Below are positions 1,651-60,702 of a DNA stretch of 64,000 bases, in pieces. The notes under the pieces are model-generated. The model ran no database searches. It saw nothing but the letters and a program-made list of their open reading frames with translations, and was not told where the DNA came from. Numbering within the stretch: position 1 is the stretch's first letter; every line of letters begins with the position of its first letter. Where the stretch lies: positions 61,000-124,999 of the forward strand of contig JAGCUV010000070.1 in NCBI GenBank assembly GCA_017962705.1, given 5' to 3'. Origin of the DNA: Bacteroidales bacterium. GTDB taxonomy: Bacteria; Bacteroidota; Bacteroidia; Bacteroidales; UBA932. Made by a program: the position numbers and the translations under genes.

Positions 1651-2049
1651 GGGGCTGCTTTGGTTTTGACAGCGCTGATATCGGACAGTAAGCACGTCGG
1701 GCGTGGGAGTTTGGCCCGTTAATCCCAGACTTCGCATTTTTTAGTTGCCAACAACAACTATGCACTCGCTGCCTGATCAACCAGGTTGACAAGGCTTAAT
1801 CGGGTCGGCCAAGGCTGCCGGTCTGACGAGTATCCCGCCATTCTTTAGGCCTGTTATGGATGGCATACGGGGTATCATTCAAACGGGATGCACAAGGCGG
1901 ATGCCTCTGCCGTCTTGCCAAGATTCAGGGGATAAGCTTCGGGTAGCCCGTCTTCCGGCAGCCCGCTGACGAAAACCCAAGGAAGACTAAACGTGTAGAA
2001 AGCTGCCTGGTGCGACGTTTGGACGGCGGTTCGAGTCCGCCCAGCTCCA
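1651..2049 (+). ncRNA. ssrA: Transfer-messenger RNA (tmRNA)
   Basis: The RNA opens with GGGGCTGCTTTGGTTTTGAC and closes with a TTCGAGTCC T-arm and CAGCTCCA, which pairs with the 5' GGGGCTG as in all tmRNAs. It rescues stalled ribosomes. The tag reading frame is at 1747-1776: after TAGTT, the resume codon GCC begins ANNNYALAA followed by TGA, so the full tag including the tRNA-borne Ala would be A-ANNNYALAA. The YALAA end is the protease signal typical of Bacteroidetes and E. coli. The CCA end is not fully encoded (CAA in the DNA). SmpB, its partner protein, is not in the window. Confidence 0.95.
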
Positions 2050-2085
2050 CAAAAAAGAGACCGGATGGTCTCTTTTTTGTGGAGC
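2044..2085 (+). terminator. tmRNA terminator: long perfect hairpin that includes the mature 3' end
   Basis: A perfect 19-bp inverted repeat (2044-2062 and 2067-2085) with a GGAT loop. The left arm begins with the last bases of tmRNA (GCTCCAC) and continues through AAAAAAGAGACC; the right arm carries GGTCTCTTTTTT and then GTGGAGC. The T run serves as the terminator tail, while the extra outer seven pairs mirror the tmRNA 3' end. Confidence 0.85.
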
Positions 2086-37972: not shown

Positions 37973-39190
37973 CTAGCTGTTGTAAGCGGTTTCGCCGTGC
38001 TCGTAGATATCGAGACCTTCTTCTTCGATGCGCGGGTCGACGCGGATACACATCGTCTTGTCGAGGACTTTCATCATGATCCAGCCCAGGCAGAAGGCCC
38101 AGGCGACAATAGCGAGCACGCCCAGGGCTTGCACCCCGAGGAAATGAAAGCCGCCGCCGTACAGCAGACCGCCGTCCGTTGCGAAAAGCCCGACGCCGAG
38201 CGTCCCGAGGATGCCGCACACTCCGTGCACCGAAATGGCGCCGACCGGGTCGTCAATGTGGAAAATGTGGTCGAAGAGGGTGACGGAACCCGTCATCGCC
38301 AAGCCGCAGAAAATGCCGATGATGGCCGCGCCGGGCATCGAAACCAGGTCGCACCCCGCCGTAATGCCCACCAAGCCGGCCAGAATGCCGTTGCAGACCA
38401 GAGACAGGGACGGTTTGCCATATAAAATCCAGGTGAAGAACAGCGTAGTGATGCCCGCCGTCGCCGCGGCCATATTGGTCGTGCAGAACACGTGCGAAAT
38501 GGCCGTCGCGTTGACCGTGCCGTCCGCCGCCAATTGCGAACCGGGGTTGAAGCCGAACCAGCCCATCCAGAGAATGAACACGCCCAGGGCGCCCAGCGCG
38601 AGGTTGTGACCGGGGATGGCCAGCGAACGGCCGTTCTTGGCATATTTTCCAATTCGGGGCCCCAGCACCATGGCGCCCGCCAACGCGATGCTGCCGCCGC
38701 AGGTATGCACCACCGCAGAACCCACAAAATCGTGGAAACCCATTTGGCTGAGCCAGCCGCCGCCCCACACCCAATGTCCTTCGATGGGATAAATCAGCAC
38801 CGAAATGATGATGGAGATGACAATGTAGGTAGAGAATTTGGTCCGCTCCGCCATCGCGCCCGACACAATGGTAGCCGCCGTCGCGCAGAACATCGTTTGG
38901 AAAATCAGAAAGCACTCTTTCGGAATATTGGTATCAGGATAGAAACTGAAATCAAAGAGGTTCCAGCTGCCGATGAAACCGTTGCCGCTGCCGTGCATCA
39001 GGGCAAAGCCCAGCATCCAGAACAGTACCGTCCCCACCATAAAATCCACAAAGTTTTTCATCAGGATGTTGGCGCTGTTTTTCGAACGGGTGAAGCCCGC
39101 CTCCACCAACGCAAATCCCGGTTGCATAAAAAAGACCAGCATAGAAGCCAGAAGGACCCATACGGTGTCCAAACCACTAATTGTTATCAT
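37973..39190 (-). CDS. amtB: Ammonium transporter
   Basis: A 405-residue inner-membrane ammonium channel of the Amt/Rh family with 11 expected helices. The paired pore histidines sit in AVVHTCGGSIALAGAMVLGP and DPVGAISVHGVCGILGTLG, and the N-terminus has MQPGFALVEAGFTRSKN. A cytoplasmic C-terminal tail ends DPRIEEEGLDIYEHGETAYN, the region that GlnK binds to close the channel. glnK lies 200 nt upstream on the same strand, so the pair probably shares the leader described at 39.8-40.06 kb. Confidence 0.96.
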   Translation of the reverse strand: MITISGLDTVWVLLASMLVFFMQPGFALVEAGFTRSKNSANILMKNFVDFMVGTVLFWMLGFALMHGSGNGFIGSWNLFDFSFYPDTNIPKECFLIFQTMFCATAATIVSGAMAERTKFSTYIVISIIISVLIYPIEGHWVWGGGWLSQMGFHDFVGSAVVHTCGGSIALAGAMVLGPRIGKYAKNGRSLAIPGHNLALGALGVFILWMGWFGFNPGSQLAADGTVNATAISHVFCTTNMAAATAGITTLFFTWILYGKPSLSLVCNGILAGLVGITAGCDLVSMPGAAIIGIFCGLAMTGSVTLFDHIFHIDDPVGAISVHGVCGILGTLGVGLFATDGGLLYGGGFHFLGVQALGVLAIVAWAFCLGWIMMKVLDKTMCIRVDPRIEEEGLDIYEHGETAYNS

Positions 39191-39391: not shown

Positions 39392-39739
39392 TTATTTCTT
39401 GTTCGCCAAAACGGTGTCCCCGTGCTCGCCCGTACGGATCGACCAGGTGTCATCCACCGGGCTGACGAAAATCCTTCCATCCCCCACCTCGCCGGTATGG
39501 GCGGCCGCCAGGATGGCGTCGATGGCCGGCTGGACAAACTGCTCGCGGCAGATAATGGTGATTTCGATGCGGGAGATGATGTCCGTGGAGTACATCACAC
39601 CCCTGTAGATCCGGTCTTGCCGGTCCTGGCCGATGGCCTTCACCTCCGAATAGGAGAACCAGTTGATGTCGGCCGCGAAGAGCGCCTGTTTGACCTCTTC
39701 GAAGTGCGTCTTGCGCACGATTGCTTCAATTTTCTTCAT
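39392..39739 (-). CDS. glnK: P-II nitrogen regulatory protein
   Basis: A 115-residue trimeric sensor of 2-oxoglutarate and ATP/ADP that gates AmtB. The T-loop holds Tyr45 and Tyr50 (IYRGVMYSTD), the latter matching the uridylylated Tyr51 of E. coli; the B-loop TGEVGDGRIFV is conserved and the C-terminal SIRTGEHGDT is typical. Linked to amtB, hence GlnK by context. Upstream (39740-40029) is a leader with a terminator but no second promoter that I can see, so expression may depend on read-through of that terminator. Confidence 0.95.
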   Translation of the reverse strand: MKKIEAIVRKTHFEEVKQALFAADINWFSYSEVKAIGQDRQDRIYRGVMYSTDIISRIEITIICREQFVQPAIDAILAAAHTGEVGDGRIFVSPVDDTWSIRTGEHGDTVLANKK

Positions 39740-39817
39740 GATAAAGCATTTTTATAGGGTTTAACATATTTATCTGCCCTTTTCGGGCTGTATTTCTTGT
39801 CGGATTTATCAACACAC

Positions 39818-39847
39818 AAAAAAGGCCGGTCCTTTCGAACCAGCCTT
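39818..39847 (-). terminator. Intrinsic terminator in the glnK leader
   Basis: On the minus strand AAGGCTGGTTC-GAAA-GGACCGGCCTT forms an 11-bp stem with a GAAA tetraloop (39822-39847), followed by a T tract from 39823 down. No annotated gene ends here; the only thing upstream is the short leader ORF, so the hairpin would stop transcription before glnK. Confidence 0.85.
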
Positions 39848-39873
39848 GCTCAATGTATCCCGTAATAATCTAT

Positions 39874-40008
39874 TTATCTATGATTTTGTGTTCTGCGACG
39901 ACTGGCGGAAAACAGGCACACACAAACGGGAACCAGATTATTGTTCTGGTTCTGCTGCTTGCGGTTATTCTTGGAGGAAATCCCGGAAATATGTCTGCCT
40001 ACTTTCAT
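39874..40008 (-). CDS. Gln/Asn-rich leader peptide upstream of glnK
   Basis: A 44-codon ORF beginning MKVGRHISGISSKNN and ending TQNHR before TAA. Codons 14-24 read NNRKQQNQNNN: three CAG and six Asn codons in eleven. The ATG lies about 20 nt downstream of a consensus promoter and the stop lies about 27 nt before the terminator stem. No protein function is expected; translation itself is probably the signal, with ribosomes slowing when charged tRNA-Gln or tRNA-Asn is scarce. The opposite strand is also open for part of this stretch, but has no promoter or family match. Confidence 0.65.
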   Translation of the reverse strand: MKVGRHISGISSKNNRKQQNQNNNLVPVCVCLFSASRRRTQNHR

Positions 40009-40029
40009 ATTTGTCGTCGTTCCGGGATG

Positions 40030-40060
40030 CAAAGATAATCAGCATTTTTGAAAAAGCAAA
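40030..40060 (-). promoter_or_regulatory. Bacteroidetes-type promoter for the glnK leader
   Basis: Minus strand TTTG (40060-40057), 19-nt spacer, TATCTTTG (40037-40030). An exact match to consensus, placed just ahead of the leader ORF. Confidence 0.85.
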
Positions 40061-40099: not shown

Positions 40100-42283
40100 A
40101 TGGCAATGAAAGAAAGACCGCAAACCACCCGCCTCTCGCTGACCGTCATCGTCGCGGCAGCCGCGCTGCTGGGCCTGACGATGGGCGTGATGTTCTACAC
40201 TTCGCACAAGATGCTTCAACAGACGGTGGAGCAACTGGTTTCCAGAGAGATGAACGCCATTTACCTGTGCATCCGCAACAAACTGGCCAAGGTGGAGGTG
40301 ACGATGGACAATATGGCCTGGGTGGCTTATGAGAATCTGGACTACCCCGACGACTTCTTCACGACCACCCGTCGTCTGGTCAAGAACAATCCGGACTTTC
40401 TGAGCAGCGGCATCGCTTTCACCCCCTATTTTTATAAGGATAGAGGAAAATGGTTCGAGCCCTTCTCCGTCCGAAGGAAAGGCGGCCCCAACCAAAAGGA
40501 CACCATCGAAGTGATGCAATTGGGATCGGCCGAACACGACTACACCAAGATGGATTTCTTCACCGTCCCCCTGGAGAAAAAAAAGAGTTGCTGGACCAAA
40601 CCCTATATGGACAACGAGGGGGCCCATACGATGGTGACCACCTATAGCGTTCCGGTCTATCTGCCGTCGGGCGAATATGTCGCTGTCGTAGCGGCCGATT
40701 TGGATGCCAACTGGATCAACGAGATTCTGGAAGAGGCCAAGACCTACAAGAGCACCCGCCGATACCTGATTTCCGGGCAATATGAATTGCTGTCCGGGAA
40801 CGACAGCCCCTTCGTTGACGAAGCCATCCAACGGATCAAGGAGGACGATACCGACCACGACGAGGACGGCTATATCACGATGAAAGATGAGCGCGGAGAG
40901 AAAATCCACGTTTTCTACCACGCCGTGGGCGGCAAGACGGACTGGATCCTGATGAACATTGTGGATGACTCTGAAATCTTCGGAAAATTGCGGAACATCC
41001 GCCTGCTGCTGACGCTGCTGGTCTGCGCCGGCCTGCTGGCCCTCGGATTCATCATCTACCGCAGCACCCGCAACTTGCAACGGCTCAACAGAATCAACGC
41101 GGAGAAAGAGCGCATCGGCGGCGAATTGCAGGTGGCCAGCCGCATCCAGCAAAGCATGCTCCCGACCCTCCACCTGCAACGGGACGATGTAGAAATTGGC
41201 GCTTCGCTGACCCCGGCCCGCGAGGTGGGCGGCGACTTGTACGACTACTTCATCCGGGACGAGAAACTGTTTTTCTGCATCGGGGACACCAGCGGGAAAG
41301 GCGCCCCGTCCGCGATGCTGATGGCTGTTACGCACTCGCTGTTCCGCGCCTTCTCCCTCCACGAGAACAACCCCGCCCGCATTATGCAGGCCGTCAACGA
41401 GTCCGCCTGCCAGGGCAACGACTCCAATATGTTCATTACCTTCTTCATCGGGGTGCTGGACCTGCCGACCGGCCGCCTGCACTATTGCGACGGCGGGCAC
41501 GACCGCCCGCTCATTCTCGGAATGTCCGGTCAAGAAGAAGCGGTCATTTCCCTTGAATGCAATCCCCACCTGCCCGTCGGCGTATGGCCCGACACGAAAT
41601 ACACGGCGCAAGAAATAATGCTGTCGCCGGGAAGCGTCCTGTTCCTCTACACCGATGGCTTGACGGAAGCAAAAGACCTAGAGCACAAGCAATTCGGTTT
41701 GGAACGCATCAAAATAACGCTGGAAGGCTGCGTGAAAGCCCACTCATCTCTCCAAGAGATTCTGCCAGCCCTTTCCCGGGAGGTAGGGCTGTTTGTGGGC
41801 GAGGCCGAGCAGAGCGACGACCTGGCGATGCTGGCCATCCGATATACGCCCCAACGCTTTGAAAGCATTTTGGACGAGACCCTCGTCCTGAAGAACAACG
41901 TCCGGGAAATCAGCAAACTCGGTCCTTTCTTCAAAGACATATCAGAAAGACTTGAAATGGATGTCAATCTGGCCCGTCAACTGCGCCTGGCCGTGGAAGA
42001 GGCCGCCGTCAATGTCATCGACTACGCCTATCCGGCCGGTACGGAAGGCGACGTGACGCTCCGAGTATTGTACGACGGGCATTGCCTCAAGACGATGATC
42101 ATCGACTCGGGCATCCCCTTCGACCCTACGGTCAAGGAGAGGGCCGACACATCCCTGTCGGCAGAAGACCGCCAGATCGGCGGACTCGGCATCCTGCTGG
42201 TGCGCGAAATGATGGATGCCATCAATTACGAACGAGACAGCGGACAGAACGTCCTGACACTGATTAAACATTTAAAAGCATAA
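40100..42283 (+). CDS. Membrane SpoIIE-type phosphatase fused to an anti-sigma-type ATPase
   Basis: 727 residues. Transmembrane helix 1 (about 13-35), an extracytoplasmic dCache-like sensor (about 36-295), helix 2 (about 296-322), a short linker coil (QVASRIQQSMLPT), a PP2C/SpoIIE phosphatase (about 345-590; metal residues in GGDLYDY, GDTSGKGAPSA, DDLAML) and a C-terminal GHKL ATPase of the RsbW/SpoIIAB type (about 595-727; EEAAVNVIDYAY, DSGIPFDP, GGLGILL). It thus holds both the phosphatase and the putative kinase arm of a partner switch in one chain. The STAS protein gene follows at 4 nt and is the obvious substrate. First gene of the NRPS operon. Confidence 0.9.
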   Translation: MAMKERPQTTRLSLTVIVAAAALLGLTMGVMFYTSHKMLQQTVEQLVSREMNAIYLCIRNKLAKVEVTMDNMAWVAYENLDYPDDFFTTTRRLVKNNPDFLSSGIAFTPYFYKDRGKWFEPFSVRRKGGPNQKDTIEVMQLGSAEHDYTKMDFFTVPLEKKKSCWTKPYMDNEGAHTMVTTYSVPVYLPSGEYVAVVAADLDANWINEILEEAKTYKSTRRYLISGQYELLSGNDSPFVDEAIQRIKEDDTDHDEDGYITMKDERGEKIHVFYHAVGGKTDWILMNIVDDSEIFGKLRNIRLLLTLLVCAGLLALGFIIYRSTRNLQRLNRINAEKERIGGELQVASRIQQSMLPTLHLQRDDVEIGASLTPAREVGGDLYDYFIRDEKLFFCIGDTSGKGAPSAMLMAVTHSLFRAFSLHENNPARIMQAVNESACQGNDSNMFITFFIGVLDLPTGRLHYCDGGHDRPLILGMSGQEEAVISLECNPHLPVGVWPDTKYTAQEIMLSPGSVLFLYTDGLTEAKDLEHKQFGLERIKITLEGCVKAHSSLQEILPALSREVGLFVGEAEQSDDLAMLAIRYTPQRFESILDETLVLKNNVREISKLGPFFKDISERLEMDVNLARQLRLAVEEAAVNVIDYAYPAGTEGDVTLRVLYDGHCLKTMIIDSGIPFDPTVKERADTSLSAEDRQIGGLGILLVREMMDAINYERDSGQNVLTLIKHLKA

Positions 42284-42287
42284 AGAA

Positions 42288-42590
42288 ATGAACACAAGCA
42301 TTGAAGAAATCGATGGCAAACTCATTGCCAACCTGGAAGGAGAAATGGACACCGCGGCGGCGATGGAAGCCGAGGAAGCGCTCAAGGTGTTGTACAACAC
42401 TAACGGGAAGGATGTCATCATCAACTGCGCGAAGTTGGAATATATCGCGTCCAGCGGCCTTCGCATCTTGCTCGGCATCCTCAAAGGGGCCAAAGCCGCC
42501 GGCAGCCGAGTGGTGTTGCGCGATGTCAACGACGACATCAAAGAGGTCTTCAAGTTGACCGGATTCATCAGCATTTTCGAGTTCGAATAA
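42288..42590 (+). CDS. STAS-domain anti-sigma factor antagonist
   Basis: A single 100-residue STAS domain. The phosphorylation loop YIASSGLRILL has candidate Ser55/Ser56, in the place of the phosphoserine of SpoIIAA/RsbV. It would be phosphorylated by a GHKL kinase and dephosphorylated by a SpoIIE-type phosphatase, both of which are domains of the protein encoded just upstream. It is 3 nt ahead of the beta-barrel gene. No sigma factor gene is in the window, so the final target is unknown. Confidence 0.9.
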   Translation: MNTSIEEIDGKLIANLEGEMDTAAAMEAEEALKVLYNTNGKDVIINCAKLEYIASSGLRILLGILKGAKAAGSRVVLRDVNDDIKEVFKLTGFISIFEFE

Positions 42591-43997: not shown

Positions 43998-46900
43998 ATG
44001 ACAATGTCTGCGCCATTGACAAAAACACAGTACGGGCTTTATGCGGAGTGTGTTTCCAATGAGGGAAAAGCCTGTTACAACATTCCTTATTGCTATACCT
44101 TGGGCGGGAACTTGGATGGAGAAAGGCTGTGCCGCGCCATCGAGCGCGCCGTGGCCGCCCATCCCGCGCTGTTCACACGCATCGCGGTCGGCGGCAACGA
44201 CGAGCCTGTGCAAAACATCGACAGTCAGGAATCCTTTACGGTGAAAGTCGAGGAGATTGACGACATCGAAGCCGTCAAAGCCGCTTTCATCCAGCCCTTC
44301 TCGCTGTTGAAAGACCGGCTGTTCCGGATTCGCCTGCTGAAAGACAAGGAGCATTTTTACCTTTTGCAGGATATTCATCACATCATCAGTGACGGGACCT
44401 CGCGCCAGGTATTGCTTGCGGATATCCAAAGGGCCTACAATGGCGAGCCTTTGGAGCCCGAGGTCCTGACGCAGATGGAGGTGGCGGAAAAAGAAGCGGA
44501 ACTGCGAGGCAGCCCCGCTTTTGAGGAAGGGAAGAAATGGTATGCCCAACACTTTGATTGCGGGGACTGCTACTCTCCCCTGCTGCCGGACCTTGACGGG
44601 ACTGCCGTTACGGAAGCGAAGCAAAGCCGTACGATGCAGGTGGATGAAGCCCGCATCGAGGACTTCTGTCGGGAAAAAGGTATTTTCAAAAGCACTTTCT
44701 TCACGGCGGTCTATGCGTACCTGCTCGCCAAATTCAACAACGAGCAGCAGGCGTTGTTTTCTAGCATTTATAATGGTCGCAGCGACCATCGACTGGCCCA
44801 TTCCGTGGCCATGCTGGTCAAGACCTTCCCCGTCTATGCGCAGTTTACTGACGAGACTTCCATTCTTGACTTTTTGAAAGCCTGTCAGGAGCAAACGAGC
44901 GGCTGCCGGGAGCGCGAGGCCTATTCCTACAGCGATGCCGTGAGCGACCTGGGATTGCAGATCGCCACGATGTTTGCCTGGCACGGCCATCTGTTCGACA
45001 GCCGGGAGTTCTGCGGCAAGCCGATGTGTGCGGAGCGTCTGAACAACAACACCCTCGAAGTACCCCTCTATGTGAAGGGCTATCTTCGCGACGGACGCTG
45101 CTGCATCGAGGCGGAATACAGCGCCGAGGTCTATTCGACGGAATTGGTCAGCCAGTTTCTGGAGAGTTACGAGGCCGTCGCCGAGGGTTTCCTGTCGAAA
45201 GAATTTTTGCGCGAAATTGACCTGTCCACCGCTTCGCAGAGGGATTTGCTGGATCGTTTCAACGAGACGGACATTCCCTACGACGACACGCAGACCATCG
45301 TCTCGCTGTTCCGCCGGCAGGCCAAGGCCACGCCCGGGCAAACCGCCGTGGTATTCAAGGACAAGACTTATACCTACGCCGAGGTGGACGATATCAGCGA
45401 CCGCATCGCGGCCACCCTGGCGGCCAAAGGATTGGGCGCGGAAGATGTAGTCTCCATCCTGATTCCCCGCTGCGAGTGGATGGTCATCGCCTCGCTGGGC
45501 GTAAGCAAGGCCGGCTGCGCCTATCAGCCTCTCGACCCCAGTTATCCGAAAGAGCGGCTCAACTTTATGATGCAGGACGCGAATGCCAAAGCGCTGATTG
45601 CCGACGAGGCCCTGCGCCCCATCGTGGATGATTTCAAGGGCGACGTGTTGCTGACCAAGGACCTCTGTTCCTTACCTGCGGCTGACAAACTTCCCGAAGG
45701 CCCCAAGCCTGAAAGCCTGTTCATCCTGCTCTATACTTCCGGCTCCACCGGAGTTCCCAAAGGCTGCCAGTTGCAGCACTCCAATCTGGTCTGCTTCTGC
45801 CATTGGTATCAGCGCTATTTTGACCTGAAGCCGGGACACAAAGTGGCGGCCTACGCCAGTTACGGCTTCGATGTCTGTATGATGGATATGTACTGCGGCC
45901 TCACCTGCGGCGCGCCCATCTACATCATTCCCGAAGAAATGCGCCTGGACCTGGTCGCCCTGAACGACTATTTCGAAAAGGAAGCCATCACCCACGCCTT
46001 CATCACCACCCAGGTGGCCCATCAGTTCGCGACCAGCATGGAGAACCATTCCCTGCTGCATCTTTGCACGGCCGGCGAGAAACTGGCTTCCCTGACTCCG
46101 CCGAAGGGCTACCATCTCCACAACGGCTACGGCCCCACGGAGACCACCGTTCTCACCACCATCTACCGCGTGGACGAGAAACGGAAAGACATTCCCATCG
46201 GCAAGCCCCTCGACAACCTGCGCCTGTACATCGTGGACGGACGGGGACAACGCCTGCCCGTCGGCGCGGTCGGCGAACTCTGGGTGGCGGGGCCGCAGGT
46301 CAGCCGGGGCTATCTCAACCGCCCCGAAAAGACGGACGAGGTCTATATTGCCAATCCGTTTACGGACGAGGAGAAATTTGCTCGCATCTACAAGACCGGC
46401 GACATAGTTCGCTACCTGCCTTCCGGCGACATCCAATTCATCGGACGGCGGGACGGCCAGGTGAAGATTCGCGGGTTCCGCATCGAACTGAAAGAGGTGG
46501 AAGCCGTCATCCGGGATTTTCCGGGCATCAAGGATGCCACCGTACAGGCCTTTGACGAGGAAAACGGCAGCGGGAAATTCATCGCCGCCTATATCGTCAG
46601 CGACCGGACCGTCGATATCGAGGCCCTGAACAAGTTCATCCTGGAACAGAAACCGCCCTATATGGTGCCGGCCGTGACGATGCAAATCGACGCCATTCCC
46701 CTCAACCAGAACTTCAAGGTCAACAAACGGGCCTTGCCCAAGCCGGAAAAGAAAGTGGAAGCCGTCGAAGCCACCGCGGCCCCGATGAGTTTGCTGCAAA
46801 CGGAACTCTTCGAGATGATTGCCGCCATCGCCGGCAACCGGGAATTCGGCATCACCACCATTTTGGGGAAAGTGGGTCTGACCTCCATTTCCGCCATCAA

Positions 46901-49900
46901 ACTGGCCGTGCAGGCCAAAAAGCGTTTCGGGGTTTCCTTGGATGCGAAAATGCTGGTCAAAAGCGGAACGCTGCAGAGCATAGAAAACGAAATCTACCAG
47001 CAGGTGCTGTCCGGAGGCGGAACCGCCGCCGGAGCGCAGGGCGTTGCTTCCCAAACCGGATCGTCTGCCGACAGCGCGCAAAGTGCGACCGCAAAAGCCA
47101 CTGATGCGTCGGCTGACACTACAAGCCAAGCCGCCGGACCGGTGTCCGTTCCCTTGAGTTATGCCCAGACCGGCGTCTATTTTGACTGCCTGAAGAACCC
47201 TTCTACACCCCTCTACAACATTCCCTATTGCATCGCATTCCCCAAAGGGACGGAGGCGCAGGCCGTAACCGAAGCCCTCAGGGCCCTCGTCGCCAGCCAT
47301 CCCCAGTTGACCGTTCATTTCGGAGATGACGGCTCGGACATCGTGCAGACGACCGCCCCGGACCAGCCCGTTGAGATTCCCGTCAAGACGATGGGCGAAG
47401 CGGAATTCGATGCCTACAAACACGCCTTTGTCCGTCCTTTCGACCTGGCCGCAGGTCCCCTCTACCGCTTTGAACTCGTCCAAGTCGGAAATCAATTATA
47501 CCTGCTTTCCGATGTCCATCACCTGGTCTTTGACGGCGCTTCCCTGGATCTCTTCCTACAGCAACTCTGCAGCCTGATGAACGGAGAAGCCCTCGAAAAA
47601 GAAGAGTTGAGTTACGCGGACTTTGTCAAGACGCAAAAAGAGGCCGAAGGCGGTCCGGACTATCAAGCCGCCCAGGAATGGTTCAAGAGCCGTCTGGCAA
47701 ACTGCGAGGCGGCGACGGAAATCCCGTCCGACCTGGCCGAACCCGTCAAAGGAACGATTGGCAATGCCTGGGCCGAATTGGACGGGAAGGCCATCGACGC
47801 ATTCGCCCGGGATAACAACATTACGCCGGCCCACTTGATTCTCGCCGCCACCTATTATGCGCTATCCCGTTTCTCCAACAGCGAGGACCTCTGCATCACG
47901 ACCGTCTCTAACGGACGCGCCGACTTGCGTATCAGCAACACCGTAGGCATGTTTGTCAATACCCTGGCCTTGAGCGCGCATATCGGGAAACAGAGCGTAC
48001 GGGAATTCCTGCAGGAGGTCAGCGCAGATTTCGACGGGACGCTCCGCCACAAGAGTTATCCTTTCGCCCGCATTGCCGCCGACTATGGTCTGAACGCGAA
48101 AATCCAGTTCGTCTATCAACGGGGCGTCATCAGCCAATACCTCTGCCAAGGCGCTCCGCTGGCGTTGGAAGGGCTGGAACTGCCAGTTCCCAAATTCCCC
48201 ATCACCTTCTTCATCAAAGATGTGAAGAGCGTGGCCGGCGTTTGCGTGGAATACGACAACGGACGCTATTCCGCCCGCTTGATGCAGGCGCTCGCCGATG
48301 CCATCCAAGTGACGACCCTACGGATGATGGAAAATCCCGACGAGGCCCTCACTTCCCTCAGCATCCTCAGCCAGGAGGAAGAACGCCGAATCATCCAACT
48401 CGGAACGGGCAAAGAACTGGATGTGGATTTGAGCGAAACCTTCGCGGGGCTCTTCACCCGGCAAGCCGCCCGCACCCCCGACGCTCCGGCTGTCGTTGAC
48501 AAAGACAGCAGGCTCACCTACGGGGAAATGGACCGTTACTCCAACGCCCTGGCCCGCCGGCTCATCGCTTTCGGCGTGCAGTCCGATGATTTCGTCTGCG
48601 TGATGCTCGACCGCGTCAAGGAATTCCCGCTTGCGGTGCTCTCCATCCACAAGGCCGGCGCCGCCTACACCCCGCTCGATTTCGAATACCCCAACGAGCG
48701 GCTGAGTTATATGCTGGAAAATTCCGAGTCGAAGGCGCTCATCACCTCGCACGCGGTGCTGGAAGCCAAGTTGGCGGAAGGCGGACTGGAAACGGCCGCC
48801 GCCCGCATCTTCTTCATCGATGATTTTATGGCGGAAGTTACCGCTGAGGGCGATGGAAAGGCATTCGAACCCATCGACCTTTCCCGTCCCGACGGCCTCG
48901 CCTATATGATTTACACCAGCGGTTCCACGGGCAAGCCCAAGGGCGCGATGCTCCACCAAGCCGGCCTGCGCAACTTCATCGCGGTAGTCATCGATATGGA
49001 GAAACTGACCGCGGCCGACCGCATCAGCGGCCACCGTTCCTTCTCTTTCGACGCGCACATCGAGGATATGTACCCTGTGCTCACCCTCGGCGGTTCGTTC
49101 CACATTATGCCTTCGGAAATCCGCAAGGACCTGGGCGCCATCCGCCAGTTCCTCTTCGACCACCAAATCACGGGCGGCGGCTATTCGACGGCGATGACCT
49201 GTCTGTTGCTGGGCGCCTTCGACGACCTCCCCATCCGTTTCACCACGGGCGGCGGCGAGAAGATGAGCGGCGTGTACAGCGACCACATTGAAATCTTCAA
49301 TGTCTATGGTCCGACCGAGTGTACGGACGACACCTCTTATTACAGCATTGCGCCCGGCACCCGCATCGAGAACATTCCCATCGGACAGAGCGTGGCCAAC
49401 AACTGGAACTTCATCGTGGACACGGCCGGCCATCTGGTTCCCCAGGGCGTAGCCGGAGAATTGTGCTTCGCCGGTATCCAGGTGGGACGCGGCTATTGGC
49501 GCCTGCCGGAACGCACGGCCCAATCCTTCGTCGACTGTCCTTTCGTCCAGGAAGACCGCTGGGGCCGCCCTGTGCAGATGTACCACACCGGCGACCTCTG
49601 CCGTTGGAACGAAGACGGACAACTCGAATACCTGGGACGCATCGACACCCAGGTCAAATTGCGCGGATTCCGCATCGAATTGGGCGAAATTGAGAACAAG
49701 GCCCTGCAAATCCAAGGCATCAGCCAGGCGGCCGCCGAGGTCCGCAAGGTCATGGGCAACGAGCATCTGGTTCTGTATTACACCTTGGAAGAAGGCTCCA
49801 CACTAAGCGAAGAGGCCATTCAAAAGGCACTGGCAGATTCTTCCTTGGCCGACTATATGGTGCCCGACGCCTATATGCGCCTGGAGGTGATGCCGATGAC

Positions 49901-51464
49901 GCCCAACCTCAAAATCAACCGCAAGGCCCTGCCCGCCCCCGAATTGAAACGGGCCGGAGAATTTGTGGCGCCCGAAGGAGAAATGGAGACGCTGTTCGCC
50001 CAAATCTTCTCCGACGTTCTTCAAATCGAACAGGTGGGAGCGACCGACAATTTCTTCGAGATTGGCGGCACCAGCATCAATGCCATCAAGGTGATTGTGG
50101 AAGCGGGCAAGAAGGGCGTACAACTCGTCTTCAACGACCTCTTCGAGCAAAAGACGCCGCGGGCCCTCGCCGCCTACCTGGGCGAGACGAACGGGAAACT
50201 GGGATCCGGAAAGTCGCAGGCGAACAGCGAAGCGCAAGCGGCCGACGGCTTTCAGGCGAACGGCACCACGGCCGACGACAGCCCGTATGCCGAACTGAAT
50301 GCCATGCTCAGCGGCAACACCCTGGCCGCGATGCTCGCCGGCGAGCGCCAAAGCATCGGCGACGTGCTGCTGACGGGCGCCACCGGCTATCTGGGCATGC
50401 ACATTCTGGGCGAACTGCTGCTCCGCTACGATGGCCACATTTTCTGCCCTGTTCGCGCCAAGAGCGATGAAGACGCCCTTCGCCGGCTCAAAACGCTGTT
50501 CTTCTACTATTTCGGCCAAACAGAGGATTTCCGGCATCTGGAAGAGCGCGTCAGCGCCTTCGCCGCCGATATTCTCCAGCCCGACGGGCTCAAGAACATC
50601 AACCAGGAAGGCCTCACCGTCGTCAACTGCGTAGCCAATGTGAAACATTTCTCCGCCGGCAACGACATCGAACGGGTCAACATCGAATCGGTGCGCCAGT
50701 TGATTGCGTTCTGCCTGCGCACGAACGCCCGCCTGATTCACATTTCCACCAACAGCATCGCGGGATTGAGCATGGACGGCGTTCCCGGCCCCGAAGTCAA
50801 ACTCACCGAGCAGACGCTCTGGATCGGGCAGCATATTCAAGAAAATAAGTATGTCTATTCCAAGTTTATGGCGGAAAAACTGGTGCTCGAAGCCATCGCG
50901 CACGACGGCCTCAACGCCAAGATTATGCGGGTGGGCAACCTTTCCGCCCGCCAGCAGGACGGCGAGTTCCAGATCAATTTCAACACCAACAACTTCCTGG
51001 CCCTGCTGCGTGCCTATGAGGTGCTTGGAATGGTGCCGTACGAAGCCCTTGACCGGCGTTTCGAGTTCTCTCCTATCGACGAAGTGGCGCGGGCCATCCT
51101 GTTGCTGGCCACGACACCGAAGGAATGCGCCGTATTCCATCCGTGCAACATCCACCGCCAGTTCCTCTCCGACATCCTCAACGGATTTGCGGAAGCGGGC
51201 ATTAGCGTCCGGCGCGTGGAGAAGGAAGAATTCCAAAAGGCGTTGGAGAAAATGATGGAGGACCCCGACCGGGTCACCTTGCTGCGTCCGCTGATGGCCT
51301 ACAACCTGAGCAATACGCATCAGATGCGTTGGATAGAATCAACCAACGATTACACCACGCAGGCGCTCTACCGCCTCGGCTTCCAATGGCCCCTCACCGC
51401 CGCCGACTATGTCCATCGTTTTGTGGACACCATTGTCGGTTTCGATTATTTTAATGTGAAATAG
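43998..51464 (+). CDS. Two-module nonribosomal peptide synthetase with terminal reductase
   Basis: 2488 residues, C-A-T-C-A-T-R. C1 (about 5-415) has HHIISDG at about 128; A1 (about 430-913) has YTSGSTGVPKG and NGYGPTETT; T1 has Ser963 in GLTSIS, with a non-standard GKVGLTS core; C2 (about 1050-1460) has HHLVFDG; A2 (about 1480-1976) has YTSGSTGKPKG and YGPTECT; T2 has the classic FFEIGGTSIN with Ser2026; the reductase (about 2115-2488) has GATGYLG and YVYSK (Tyr2285, Lys2289). By hand alignment to GrsA the A-domain pockets read D-V-M-F-C-A-G-V and D-A-E-G-T-G-V-D; I do not assign substrates. A reductase releases the chain as an aldehyde (or alcohol). An N-terminal C domain suggests an N-acyl start unit. 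The layout matches the gut NRPS group reported to make dipeptide aldehydes and pyrazinones. Confidence 0.93.
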   Translation: MTMSAPLTKTQYGLYAECVSNEGKACYNIPYCYTLGGNLDGERLCRAIERAVAAHPALFTRIAVGGNDEPVQNIDSQESFTVKVEEIDDIEAVKAAFIQPFSLLKDRLFRIRLLKDKEHFYLLQDIHHIISDGTSRQVLLADIQRAYNGEPLEPEVLTQMEVAEKEAELRGSPAFEEGKKWYAQHFDCGDCYSPLLPDLDGTAVTEAKQSRTMQVDEARIEDFCREKGIFKSTFFTAVYAYLLAKFNNEQQALFSSIYNGRSDHRLAHSVAMLVKTFPVYAQFTDETSILDFLKACQEQTSGCREREAYSYSDAVSDLGLQIATMFAWHGHLFDSREFCGKPMCAERLNNNTLEVPLYVKGYLRDGRCCIEAEYSAEVYSTELVSQFLESYEAVAEGFLSKEFLREIDLSTASQRDLLDRFNETDIPYDDTQTIVSLFRRQAKATPGQTAVVFKDKTYTYAEVDDISDRIAATLAAKGLGAEDVVSILIPRCEWMVIASLGVSKAGCAYQPLDPSYPKERLNFMMQDANAKALIADEALRPIVDDFKGDVLLTKDLCSLPAADKLPEGPKPESLFILLYTSGSTGVPKGCQLQHSNLVCFCHWYQRYFDLKPGHKVAAYASYGFDVCMMDMYCGLTCGAPIYIIPEEMRLDLVALNDYFEKEAITHAFITTQVAHQFATSMENHSLLHLCTAGEKLASLTPPKGYHLHNGYGPTETTVLTTIYRVDEKRKDIPIGKPLDNLRLYIVDGRGQRLPVGAVGELWVAGPQVSRGYLNRPEKTDEVYIANPFTDEEKFARIYKTGDIVRYLPSGDIQFIGRRDGQVKIRGFRIELKEVEAVIRDFPGIKDATVQAFDEENGSGKFIAAYIVSDRTVDIEALNKFILEQKPPYMVPAVTMQIDAIPLNQNFKVNKRALPKPEKKVEAVEATAAPMSLLQTELFEMIAAIAGNREFGITTILGKVGLTSISAIKLAVQAKKRFGVSLDAKMLVKSGTLQSIENEIYQQVLSGGGTAAGAQGVASQTGSSADSAQSATAKATDASADTTSQAAGPVSVPLSYAQTGVYFDCLKNPSTPLYNIPYCIAFPKGTEAQAVTEALRALVASHPQLTVHFGDDGSDIVQTTAPDQPVEIPVKTMGEAEFDAYKHAFVRPFDLAAGPLYRFELVQVGNQLYLLSDVHHLVFDGASLDLFLQQLCSLMNGEALEKEELSYADFVKTQKEAEGGPDYQAAQEWFKSRLANCEAATEIPSDLAEPVKGTIGNAWAELDGKAIDAFARDNNITPAHLILAATYYALSRFSNSEDLCITTVSNGRADLRISNTVGMFVNTLALSAHIGKQSVREFLQEVSADFDGTLRHKSYPFARIAADYGLNAKIQFVYQRGVISQYLCQGAPLALEGLELPVPKFPITFFIKDVKSVAGVCVEYDNGRYSARLMQALADAIQVTTLRMMENPDEALTSLSILSQEEERRIIQLGTGKELDVDLSETFAGLFTRQAARTPDAPAVVDKDSRLTYGEMDRYSNALARRLIAFGVQSDDFVCVMLDRVKEFPLAVLSIHKAGAAYTPLDFEYPNERLSYMLENSESKALITSHAVLEAKLAEGGLETAAARIFFIDDFMAEVTAEGDGKAFEPIDLSRPDGLAYMIYTSGSTGKPKGAMLHQAGLRNFIAVVIDMEKLTAADRISGHRSFSFDAHIEDMYPVLTLGGSFHIMPSEIRKDLGAIRQFLFDHQITGGGYSTAMTCLLLGAFDDLPIRFTTGGGEKMSGVYSDHIEIFNVYGPTECTDDTSYYSIAPGTRIENIPIGQSVANNWNFIVDTAGHLVPQGVAGELCFAGIQVGRGYWRLPERTAQSFVDCPFVQEDRWGRPVQMYHTGDLCRWNEDGQLEYLGRIDTQVKLRGFRIELGEIENKALQIQGISQAAAEVRKVMGNEHLVLYYTLEEGSTLSEEAIQKALADSSLADYMVPDAYMRLEVMPMTPNLKINRKALPAPELKRAGEFVAPEGEMETLFAQIFSDVLQIEQVGATDNFFEIGGTSINAIKVIVEAGKKGVQLVFNDLFEQKTPRALAAYLGETNGKLGSGKSQANSEAQAADGFQANGTTADDSPYAELNAMLSGNTLAAMLAGERQSIGDVLLTGATGYLGMHILGELLLRYDGHIFCPVRAKSDEDALRRLKTLFFYYFGQTEDFRHLEERVSAFAADILQPDGLKNINQEGLTVVNCVANVKHFSAGNDIERVNIESVRQLIAFCLRTNARLIHISTNSIAGLSMDGVPGPEVKLTEQTLWIGQHIQENKYVYSKFMAEKLVLEAIAHDGLNAKIMRVGNLSARQQDGEFQINFNTNNFLALLRAYEVLGMVPYEALDRRFEFSPIDEVARAILLLATTPKECAVFHPCNIHRQFLSDILNGFAEAGISVRRVEKEEFQKALEKMMEDPDRVTLLRPLMAYNLSNTHQMRWIESTNDYTTQALYRLGFQWPLTAADYVHRFVDTIVGFDYFNVK

Positions 51465-60252: not shown

Positions 60253-60299
60253 CACACCATCATTTGCGGCATCCAACTCCCGGGACGCCGAAACAGGAA

Positions 60300-60500
60300 T
60301 TGACTGCGGCAGGTCTTCTGACTCGTTCCAACCTCCCGCCTTCTCACGCCTGGAGCCCTCTCCTTTTTTCTGTGTGGAATGAAGGCCGAAGACTTCCGGC
60401 GCAATGGCTCAGATAGGAGGCCGCTAAAAGAACTTACAGCTGCGGGAACAGCGCCGGGCTTTCACCGGCTTCCCTTTTCAAACGAGCGCGATGCCGCCCA
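60300..60500 (-). promoter_or_regulatory. Cobalamin riboswitch upstream of btuB
   Basis: Minus strand order: AAAAGGGAAGCCGGTGAAAG, then CGCTGTTCCCGCAGCTGTAA, GAGCCATTG, the GGAAGTC stretch, and the B12 box AGTCAGAAGACCTGCC (60307-60323). These are the conserved blocks of the cobalamin riboswitch. Binding of adenosylcobalamin or a related corrinoid should shut off btuB-btuG-btuC. The 5' limit of the P1 stem is approximate. Confidence 0.93.
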
Positions 60501-60537
60501 ACAGGCCTTGGCCGCGCCCATTCACCGCAATCCGACA

Positions 60538-60569
60538 CAAAAATACAAAGAAGCAAAGAAAATTGCAAA
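60538..60569 (-). promoter_or_regulatory. Bacteroidetes-type promoter of the B12 uptake operon
   Basis: Minus strand TTTG (60569-60566), 20-nt spacer, TATTTTTG (60545-60538), about 40 nt before the riboswitch. Confidence 0.75.
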
Positions 60570-60631: not shown

Positions 60632-60702
60632 GGTGCGTTGGCCGAGTGGCTAGGCATAGGTCTGCAAAACCTACTACAGCGGTTCGATTCCTCTACGCAC
60701 CT
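60632..60702 (+). tRNA. tRNA-Cys (GCA anticodon)
   Basis: 71 nt: acceptor GGTGCGT pairs with ACGCACC; D-arm GGCCGAGTGGCTAGGC region; anticodon loop CTGCAAA with GCA; T-arm GCGGTTCGATTCCTC. CCA is not encoded (CAC follows the discriminator T). One T-stem pair is G-T or mismatched compared with the usual tRNA-Cys. Confidence 0.95.

Follow-up and report, generated by a model that had tools for sequence, protein, structure and literature searches.

What decides whether glnK and amtB, the genes for a P-II protein and an ammonium transporter, are transcribed in a Bacteroidales bacterium? Nitrogen control is usually described in terms of P-II/NtrBC, GlnR/TnrA, NtcA or glutamine riboswitches. In assembly GCA_017962705.1, a 64,000-nt stretch of contig JAGCUV010000070.1 (hereafter the window) carries glnK (39392..39739, minus strand; Pfam P-II) and amtB (37973..39190, minus strand; Pfam Ammonium_transp, NCBIfam amt) as the first and second genes after a leader, designated L003 in our set. 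A sequence-only reading had proposed this leader to attenuate glnK-amtB by means of a peptide rich in Gln and Asn codons. From the analysis of the window and its relatives, we conclude that the leader is very probably a ribosome-mediated transcription attenuator with Gln and Asn control codons. The hallmarks of such a device, i.e. a promoter, a run of control codons that match the product, a terminator and a competing antiterminator strand, are all present.

Every part named in the sequence-only reading (promoter, 44-codon open reading frame (ORF), a core with nine Gln/Asn in eleven codons, and an 11-bp GAAA-loop terminator before glnK) was found again on re-reading the sequence. The promoter (40030..40060, minus strand) comprises TTTG (40060-40057), a 19-nt spacer and TATCTTTG (40037-40030). 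According to the accessible portion of one study (PMC7366714), TAnnTTTG with TTTG near -33 is the primary sigma factor consensus in Bacteroidetes; the window promoter fits this consensus as a sequence match. Directly 5′ of the leader start codon lies CGACGAC (segment 1; 40013..40019, minus strand), as taken from the minimum free energy (MFE) structure of the unmasked leader. The 44-codon ORF (39874..40008, minus strand) reads MKVGRHISGISSKNNRKQQNQNNNLVPVCVCLFSASRRRTQNHR, with control codons 14-24 (39937..39969, minus strand; NNRKQQNQNNN) being Gln or Asn at 9 of 11 positions. As stated before, GAACCAG (39952-39946) is complementary to two identical CTGGTTC copies, one beside it (39936-39930), with which it can form a local hairpin (39930..39952, minus strand), and one inside the 5′ arm of the terminator. 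Further downstream, GCCAGTC (segment 2; 39900..39906, minus strand) is likewise complementary to the terminator 5′ arm and is the candidate antiterminator strand. The intrinsic terminator itself, AAGGCTGGTTC-GAAA-GGACCGGCCTT (segments 3 and 4; 39822..39847, minus strand), has 11 pairs, two of them G-U, a stability of -17.7 kcal/mol and the T-rich tail TTTTGTGTGT directly 3′ of it; from there, it is 83 nt to the start of glnK. As the earlier reading had it, no second promoter is visible, with TAnnTTnG absent from the 80 nt past the window terminator. The leader RNA folds with z = -6.4 (0 of 200 dinucleotide shuffles were equally stable), and no other ORF of the 64-kb window combines at least six Gln/Asn per 12 codons with a terminator behind it.

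Divergent from glnK, the plus strand at 40100-42590 encodes a Cache-sensor/SpoIIE phosphatase/HATPase protein and then a STAS-domain protein (Pfam), likely a partner-switching pair. Beyond these, at 43998-51464 (plus strand), lies the gene of a 2488-aa nonribosomal peptide synthetase; Pfam matches two stretches each for its condensation, AMP-binding and carrier domains and, at the C-terminus, an NAD-binding domain of reductase type. Rfam places a tmRNA at 1651-2052 (plus strand), a cobalamin riboswitch at 60291-60544 (minus strand) and a tRNA at 60632-60702 (plus strand) of the window.

GlnK matches were obtained in 15 of 61 congeners, 57 of 299 genomes of the family and 122 of 393 genomes of the order, many of these genomes being incomplete and many metagenome assemblies. 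The host genome itself contains a second P-II domain match (G000:C95:12415-12699, L002; 32.8 bits). In 14 out of 71 glnK loci (L003-L073), a few of which offer little sequence ahead of the gene (L019 no more than 13 nt), a terminator ends at most 150 nt before glnK. Thirteen of the 14 also have a leader rich in Gln/Asn, which supports the proposed leader-peptide attenuator of glnK-amtB; the exception, L065, belongs to another family. In many of the remaining loci glnK closely follows another gene, as judged by eye, and amtB lies within 2.5 kb after glnK in 69 of the 71. Matches to glutamine synthetase III (GSIII, encoded by glnN) occur in 43 of 61 congeners, and surveys of GSIII and AsnB yielded further leaders of glnN and separate leaders of asnB. 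For glnN, 11 distinct loci out of 54 combine a terminator within 150 nt with a Gln/Asn leader, a count that includes L124, recognised on second reading, and treats L128 as a repeat of L107. Four others (L130, L139, L151 and L155) have a terminator within that distance and no Gln/Asn ORF, and L148 has a hairpin ahead of glnN with neither a T-run nor such an ORF; these five hairpins are possibly decayed attenuators or terminators of the preceding gene. Thus, relatives with the terminator and no Gln/Asn ORF, named beforehand as a sign against the idea, are rare at glnK (1 of 14) but not at glnN (4 loci without versus 11 with the ORF). Many glnN genes have neither terminator nor leader, including most of a clade at 54-60% identity.

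The resulting set comprises 40 leaders; four more (L373-L376) came later and stand outside all statistics. L150, a near-copy of L074 from another genome, was excluded before counting, as were repeats of one locus (L126, L128, L132, L195-L197, L200, L201, L229 and L326). For L131, L135 and L175 the start codon was corrected, and for L124 the terminator. TAnnTTnG is found within 70 nt upstream in 25 of the 40 leaders (4.7 expected from mononucleotide shuffles), and within 80 nt past the terminator in 2 of 40.

The set shows glnK-amtB to be too narrow a description of the target, correct as it is for the window. All elements found precede glnK (directly or via one gene without known function), amtB, glnN or asnB. 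Where glnK lies inside an operon, as in several congeners, leader and terminator precede glnN, which is the first gene of these glnN-gltBD-...-glnK-amtB operons. L074, for example, reads glnN-gltB-gltD-glnK-amtB (Pfam for glnN, gltB and the GltD-like protein), and in L075 pyrG (Pfam) and a purF-like gene, scoring 153.8 bits against the purF model's cut-off of 350, stand ahead of glnK. A second element of the window's own genome stands ahead of asnB on contig C29 (L312); the remainder of asnB is found together with glnN on contig C121, and the two unjoined contig ends share ~50 nt in a by-eye comparison. The asnB reading frame of L312 is broken near the end of C29, probably through an assembly-end error. 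In a second family (G573 and G713), the targets are a gene without known function followed by glnK, amtB, and glnN. The element thus belongs to operons, not to glnK itself, and the genes regulated, namely glnN, gltB, the gltD-like gene, asnB, glnK and amtB, have as their end products the amino acids for which its control codons stand. In L203, asnB is the target of a second leader; there (L203:11515-11860), the asnB attenuator is followed, still before the gene, by another strong GGCTGGC hairpin with no T-run, possibly a tandem or relic element. The gene between leader and glnK at L327:4984-5679, with counterparts in L202 and L328, encodes an exported-looking protein with no match in Pfam or NCBIfam. 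In the accessible part of a study on Prevotella ruminicola (PMC5552732), the nitrogen cluster includes a gene for a membrane protein of unknown function.

Over the 40 leaders, 432 of 1347 codons are for Gln or Asn, compared to 7.0-7.4% in reference genes, an enrichment that is partly by construction, most leaders having been found by that feature. The mix varies with the target. Leaders ahead of asnB are Asn-weighted, six of them having a higher Asn share of control codons than 30 leaders of glnK or glnN (p = 0.004; sequences are related, and this and the p-values below overstate independence); this comparison is without the second leader of L203 and the three leaders before the gene of unknown function and glnK. 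The leader of the second-family amtB contains Asn only (15 Asn, no Gln). Control codons total 202 CAG, 9 CAA, 140 AAT and 81 AAC over the 40 leaders; five window genes, on the other hand, prefer AAC (114 vs 38 AAT) and use CAA for 70 of 161 Gln codons. This bias may reflect charging sensitivity or RNA pairing.

Which RNA segments form the switch? The sequence-only reading had put GAACCAG/CTGGTTC at its core. An unguided alignment (A2) of 26 hand-chosen leaders out of the 40, starting ~40 nt before the stop codon end, points to a different strand. Besides the terminator, its one conserved island is a CCAGTCGG-like (CCAGTC-like) sequence near the stop codon, with no further conserved block in the aligned part; this is segment 2, GCCAGTC in the window (39906-39900), which has letters in all 26 rows. 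Segment 2 and the terminator 5′ arm are paired in 91.8% of cells, as compared to at most 44.5% for controls slid by one to three columns. The terminator clearly covaries, with 95.1% pairing and a covariation score above all 500 shuffles. Antiterminator covariation is weak: three pairs show changes on both sides, and shuffles equal this number in 258 of 500 cases, the covariation score in 30 and the percentage paired in 48. Since shuffles reach these measures, the pairing of segment 2 with the arm is mainly conserved sequence. The expectation of conserved Gln/Asn codons and compensating stem changes in relatives was borne out for the codons and the terminator, but only weakly for the antiterminator.

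Individual leaders were tested as well. The antiterminator duplex is better than its shuffles at p < 0.05 in 11 of 36 leaders (window p = 0.146), which combine to a Fisher value of 3e-10 over related sequences, and swapping arms between leaders weakens the pairing (p = 0.0075; p = 0.0099 when confined to 32 non-redundant leaders). It is part of the MFE structure of the stalled transcript in 28 of 36 leaders, compared to 29.9 expected from shuffles, a comparison that does not discriminate. Partners assigned by the ungapped 9-mer search are doubtful in L129 and L171, as is segment 2 in L204, and the pair table covers 39 of 40 leaders, with L175 left out as having no recognised core. A further pairing may protect segment 2: segment 1 can anneal to GTCGTCG (39902-39896), which overlaps it, and the corresponding duplex test yields p < 0.05 in 10 of 36 leaders (Fisher 7e-8; window p = 0.11), which makes this contact between segment 2 and the start-codon region suggestive.

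The GAACCAG/CTGGTTC pairing, by comparison, is kept in part of the set only. Its exact complementarity in the window and a compensated version of the local hairpin in L017 (GAACTGG...CCGGTTC) would suit a switch of opposite logic, in which GAACCAG has the CTGGTTC of the terminator arm as its partner, such that an exposed control region leads to read-through and a stalled ribosome to termination. We regard this as improbable: neither hairpin nor switch was seen by eye in L011, L013 and L015, the alignment has segment 2 in every row with the pairing frequency given above, and a switch of this kind would turn off glutamine synthetase during glutamine shortage. GAACCAG:CTGGTTC was rejected as the core switch, as it was not seen by eye across the wider leader set; judged from the sequences, the hairpin appears to be lineage-specific, perhaps a pause hairpin.

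Returning to attenuation through segment 2, the spacing of the parts suggests how it would operate. In 38 of 40 leaders, 15-37 nt separate segment 2 from the last control codon (median 27), so that stalling on the control codons would leave segment 2 free of the ribosome. Segment 2 ends a median of 11 nt from the stop codon end over the 40 leaders, and in 34 of them its end falls anywhere from 17 nt ahead of that point to 13 nt past it. These positions derive from a motif list drawn from the same leaders, which probably misplaces segment 2 in L024. In five leaders, i.e. that of the window (26 nt), L017, L079, L166 and L312, its end lies 26-36 nt ahead of the stop codon end and is thus too far away for a terminating ribosome to cover. 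Coverage is judged here by the size of the ribosome footprint. The direction of the switch, left open by the earlier reading, would follow from this geometry.

In the mechanism that we propose, RNA polymerase would start ~20 nt before the leader ORF, with a ribosome following. During a shortage of charged tRNA-Gln or tRNA-Asn, the ribosome would stall in the Gln/Asn run; its footprint would end before segment 2 (~27 nt from the last control codon), and the free segment 2 could pair with the nascent 5′ arm of the terminator, in which case no terminator would form and glnK-amtB would be transcribed. When both charged tRNAs are ample, the ribosome would reach the stop codon and the terminator could form. 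In most relatives, the ribosome at the stop codon would cover segment 2. In the window, L017, L079, L166 and L312, segment 2 may instead re-pair with the start-codon region behind the finished ribosome, the likelier route back to termination in these five. Matches to glutaminyl-tRNA synthetase (GlnRS) score above the cut-off in 21 of 26 genomes and those to asparaginyl-tRNA synthetase (AsnRS) in 22 of 26, with all 26 having some match to both, the lower ones including other synthetases and genes cut by contig ends. With GlnRS and AsnRS present, free Gln and Asn can be charged directly.

Scans of larger sequence sets bear on how specific the combination of leader and target is. Over 80 named glnK loci (2.56 Mb, both strands), 11 ORFs with a terminator behind them reach at least six Gln/Asn per 12 codons. 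Nine are the element, ahead of glnK, of a gene without known function and glnK, of glnN or of asnB; the other two, at the lowest threshold, are chance. In the 61 congeners, GGCTGG-type palindromes mark 47 distinct sites (55 rows, eight being second strands). Thirteen of these lie inside Gln/Asn leaders, every one ahead of glnK, glnN or asnB; 11 of the 13 were flagged by the scan (L314 with only 5 Gln/Asn in 12) and two were already known. The other 34 sites stayed unflagged even at 5 Gln/Asn in 12, in a scan that would miss a leader whose terminator has no T-run, such as L124.

The unit could also be an independent small gene, making a functional Gln/Asn-rich peptide or a small RNA (sRNA) with its own terminator, and glnK would then be expressed by unregulated leaky read-through. 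A short transcript with its own promoter and terminator would look identical, and the portion available of a study on Bacteroides thetaiotaomicron reports many sRNA candidates and small ORFs in that species (PMC7366714). We nevertheless hold this to be improbable too, and marginally more so than the reversed switch, given that the unit precedes whichever nitrogen gene heads the operon, and that Gln/Asn content, spacing and RNA segments persist, whereas the peptides differ widely: the other 39 leaders are Gln/Asn-rich, with peptide sequences mostly different from that of the window.

A covariance model separates the RNA from its codons. It was built from 26 training leaders, including that of the window, and extends from ~40 nt before the stop codon end to the terminator. 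In the host genome, it gave two matches at E <= 0.05, namely the window element and the asnB element, on which it had not been trained. In 393 genomes of the order, all eight matches of at least 48.8 bits are Gln/Asn leaders: the window element, the asnB element of its own genome, and three each in G573 and G713 of the second family. Two of the eight are training sequences (the window and one of the six from G573/G713), and others resemble the L202 training rows. The next match scores 47.3 bits. Some match at E <= 0.05 occurs in 312 of the 393 genomes, but weak matches mean little, and among the weaker ones that were read (L346-L372) there was no convincing Gln/Asn leader. This order-wide search used stricter filters and included only six genomes of the window's family.

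These data also argue against a glutamine-binding riboswitch or a protein-binding leader switching the terminator, with the ORF being incidental. In the accessible portion of one survey, glnA RNAs are indeed associated with genes for P-II, glutamine synthetase, glutamate synthase (GOGAT) and ammonium transporters (PMC2864571). However, no Rfam family matches the leader at its gathering threshold; six sub-threshold matches appear at E <= 10, the best, Thr_leader, having E = 0.27 and lying far under its gathering score, and the Rfam covariance models of glnA / Downstream-peptide, T-box and Bacteroid-trp gave no leader match. Moreover, the aligned part contains no conserved block besides segment 2 and the terminator, and all eight strong model matches have a Gln/Asn-rich ORF upstream, even though the model excludes the control codons. 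A riboswitch or known RNA family, lacking Rfam support, was rejected, and we consider this explanation very improbable.

As for its range, the attenuator candidate is present in 13 of 15 congeners with glnK, being absent from G015 and G041, versus 3 of 46 without glnK, in which only the glnN and asnB loci were read. Outside the window's family, it is absent from 14 of 16 glnK loci, with up to 12.5 kb around glnK read, and present in those of G573 and G713. Of the 80 named glnK loci, whose taxon names are those of the record titles, 73 have no element, its nine matches falling in seven loci. According to these titles, the rumen and other gut sites were the source of several of the named relatives. 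In the rumen and gut, ammonium is a main nitrogen source.

Relatives carry the device also ahead of genes that make glutamine and asparagine, which suggests that nitrogen assimilation is turned on when charged tRNA for Gln or Asn is short. The leaders would then define a glutamine/asparagine regulon that may sense both amide amino acids through tRNA charging. To a wider reading we give slightly better than even chances, namely that attenuators reading Gln and Asn charging together run ammonium assimilation, with the Gln:Asn mix tuned per target, in place of a transcription-factor nitrogen system; the programme would consist of P-II/AmtB, GSIII, GOGAT and AsnB and, in some species, of glutamine-using PyrG and a PurF-like enzyme. 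If true, expression of P-II and AmtB would be set by the speed of translation over Gln/Asn codons, tying nitrogen status directly to protein synthesis. The element is cis-acting and codon-swappable, and its signature of Gln/Asn run, spacing, antiterminator and terminator can be searched for elsewhere.

How does this compare with systems already described? In P. ruminicola 23, a cluster with glnK, amtB and asnB downstream of glnN-2 and gltBD responds to ammonium with 38-69 fold changes, the largest reported there, whose direction is given differently in different passages; the cluster is similar to those seen here in its glnN/gltBD/glnK/amtB/asnB genes, and the accessible part of that paper gives no mechanism and mentions no attenuator (PMC5552732). 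Among the 80 named glnK loci, those labelled Prevotella or Prevotellaceae had no leader that we could find.

Two RNA devices elsewhere serve related ends. The glnA RNA is a glutamine riboswitch of cyanobacteria. It shares the kinds of target (P-II, glutamine synthetase, GOGAT, ammonium transporter) and differs in being a ligand-binding RNA of other bacteria, as far as the available part of the source goes (PMC2864571), whereas here translation of a leader peptide would sense tRNA charging. As to terminator/antiterminator switches that report tRNA charging, Asn and Gln T-box leaders of Firmicutes do the same, but they recognise uncharged tRNA by direct binding and work without a leader ORF, and the window leader has no Rfam match.

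Within the phylum, the nearest likenesses are other leaders with attenuator features that precede amino-acid genes. One of them, Bacteroid-trp, attenuates trp genes. It is catalogued as RF01692 (PMC2864571), and clues to leader peptides come from Flavobacterium psychrophilum (PMC9723704), both sources being available in part; the former concerns Trp by its name, unlike the present leader, which matches no Rfam family, and the accessible part of the latter names no amino acid. Among the open-access papers listed, no Gln or Asn leader-peptide attenuator was recognised by title or the start of the abstract, so that the earlier statement that none is described for glnK-amtB stands to that extent; Lopatovskaya et al. 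2010, cited in PMC4833913 and reportedly a comparative survey of attenuators, may hold related predictions.

The mechanism class, ribosome-mediated attenuation, is well known. The trp, his, leu, ilv, thr and phe operons all have ribosome-mediated attenuators. Their anatomy, as described for amino-acid operons in the accessible portion of PMC2659441, recurs here: a promoter, a short ORF with codons for the product, an antiterminator overlapping the ORF end and a terminator before the first gene. In contrast to these classical cases, the codons are for Gln and Asn together, the targets include ammonium transport and a P-II signalling protein, and segment 1, as proposed, is formed by the region of the start codon instead of that of the control codons. 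New, judged by the open-access papers listed, is the use of Gln/Asn control codons over ammonium assimilation and P-II/AmtB.
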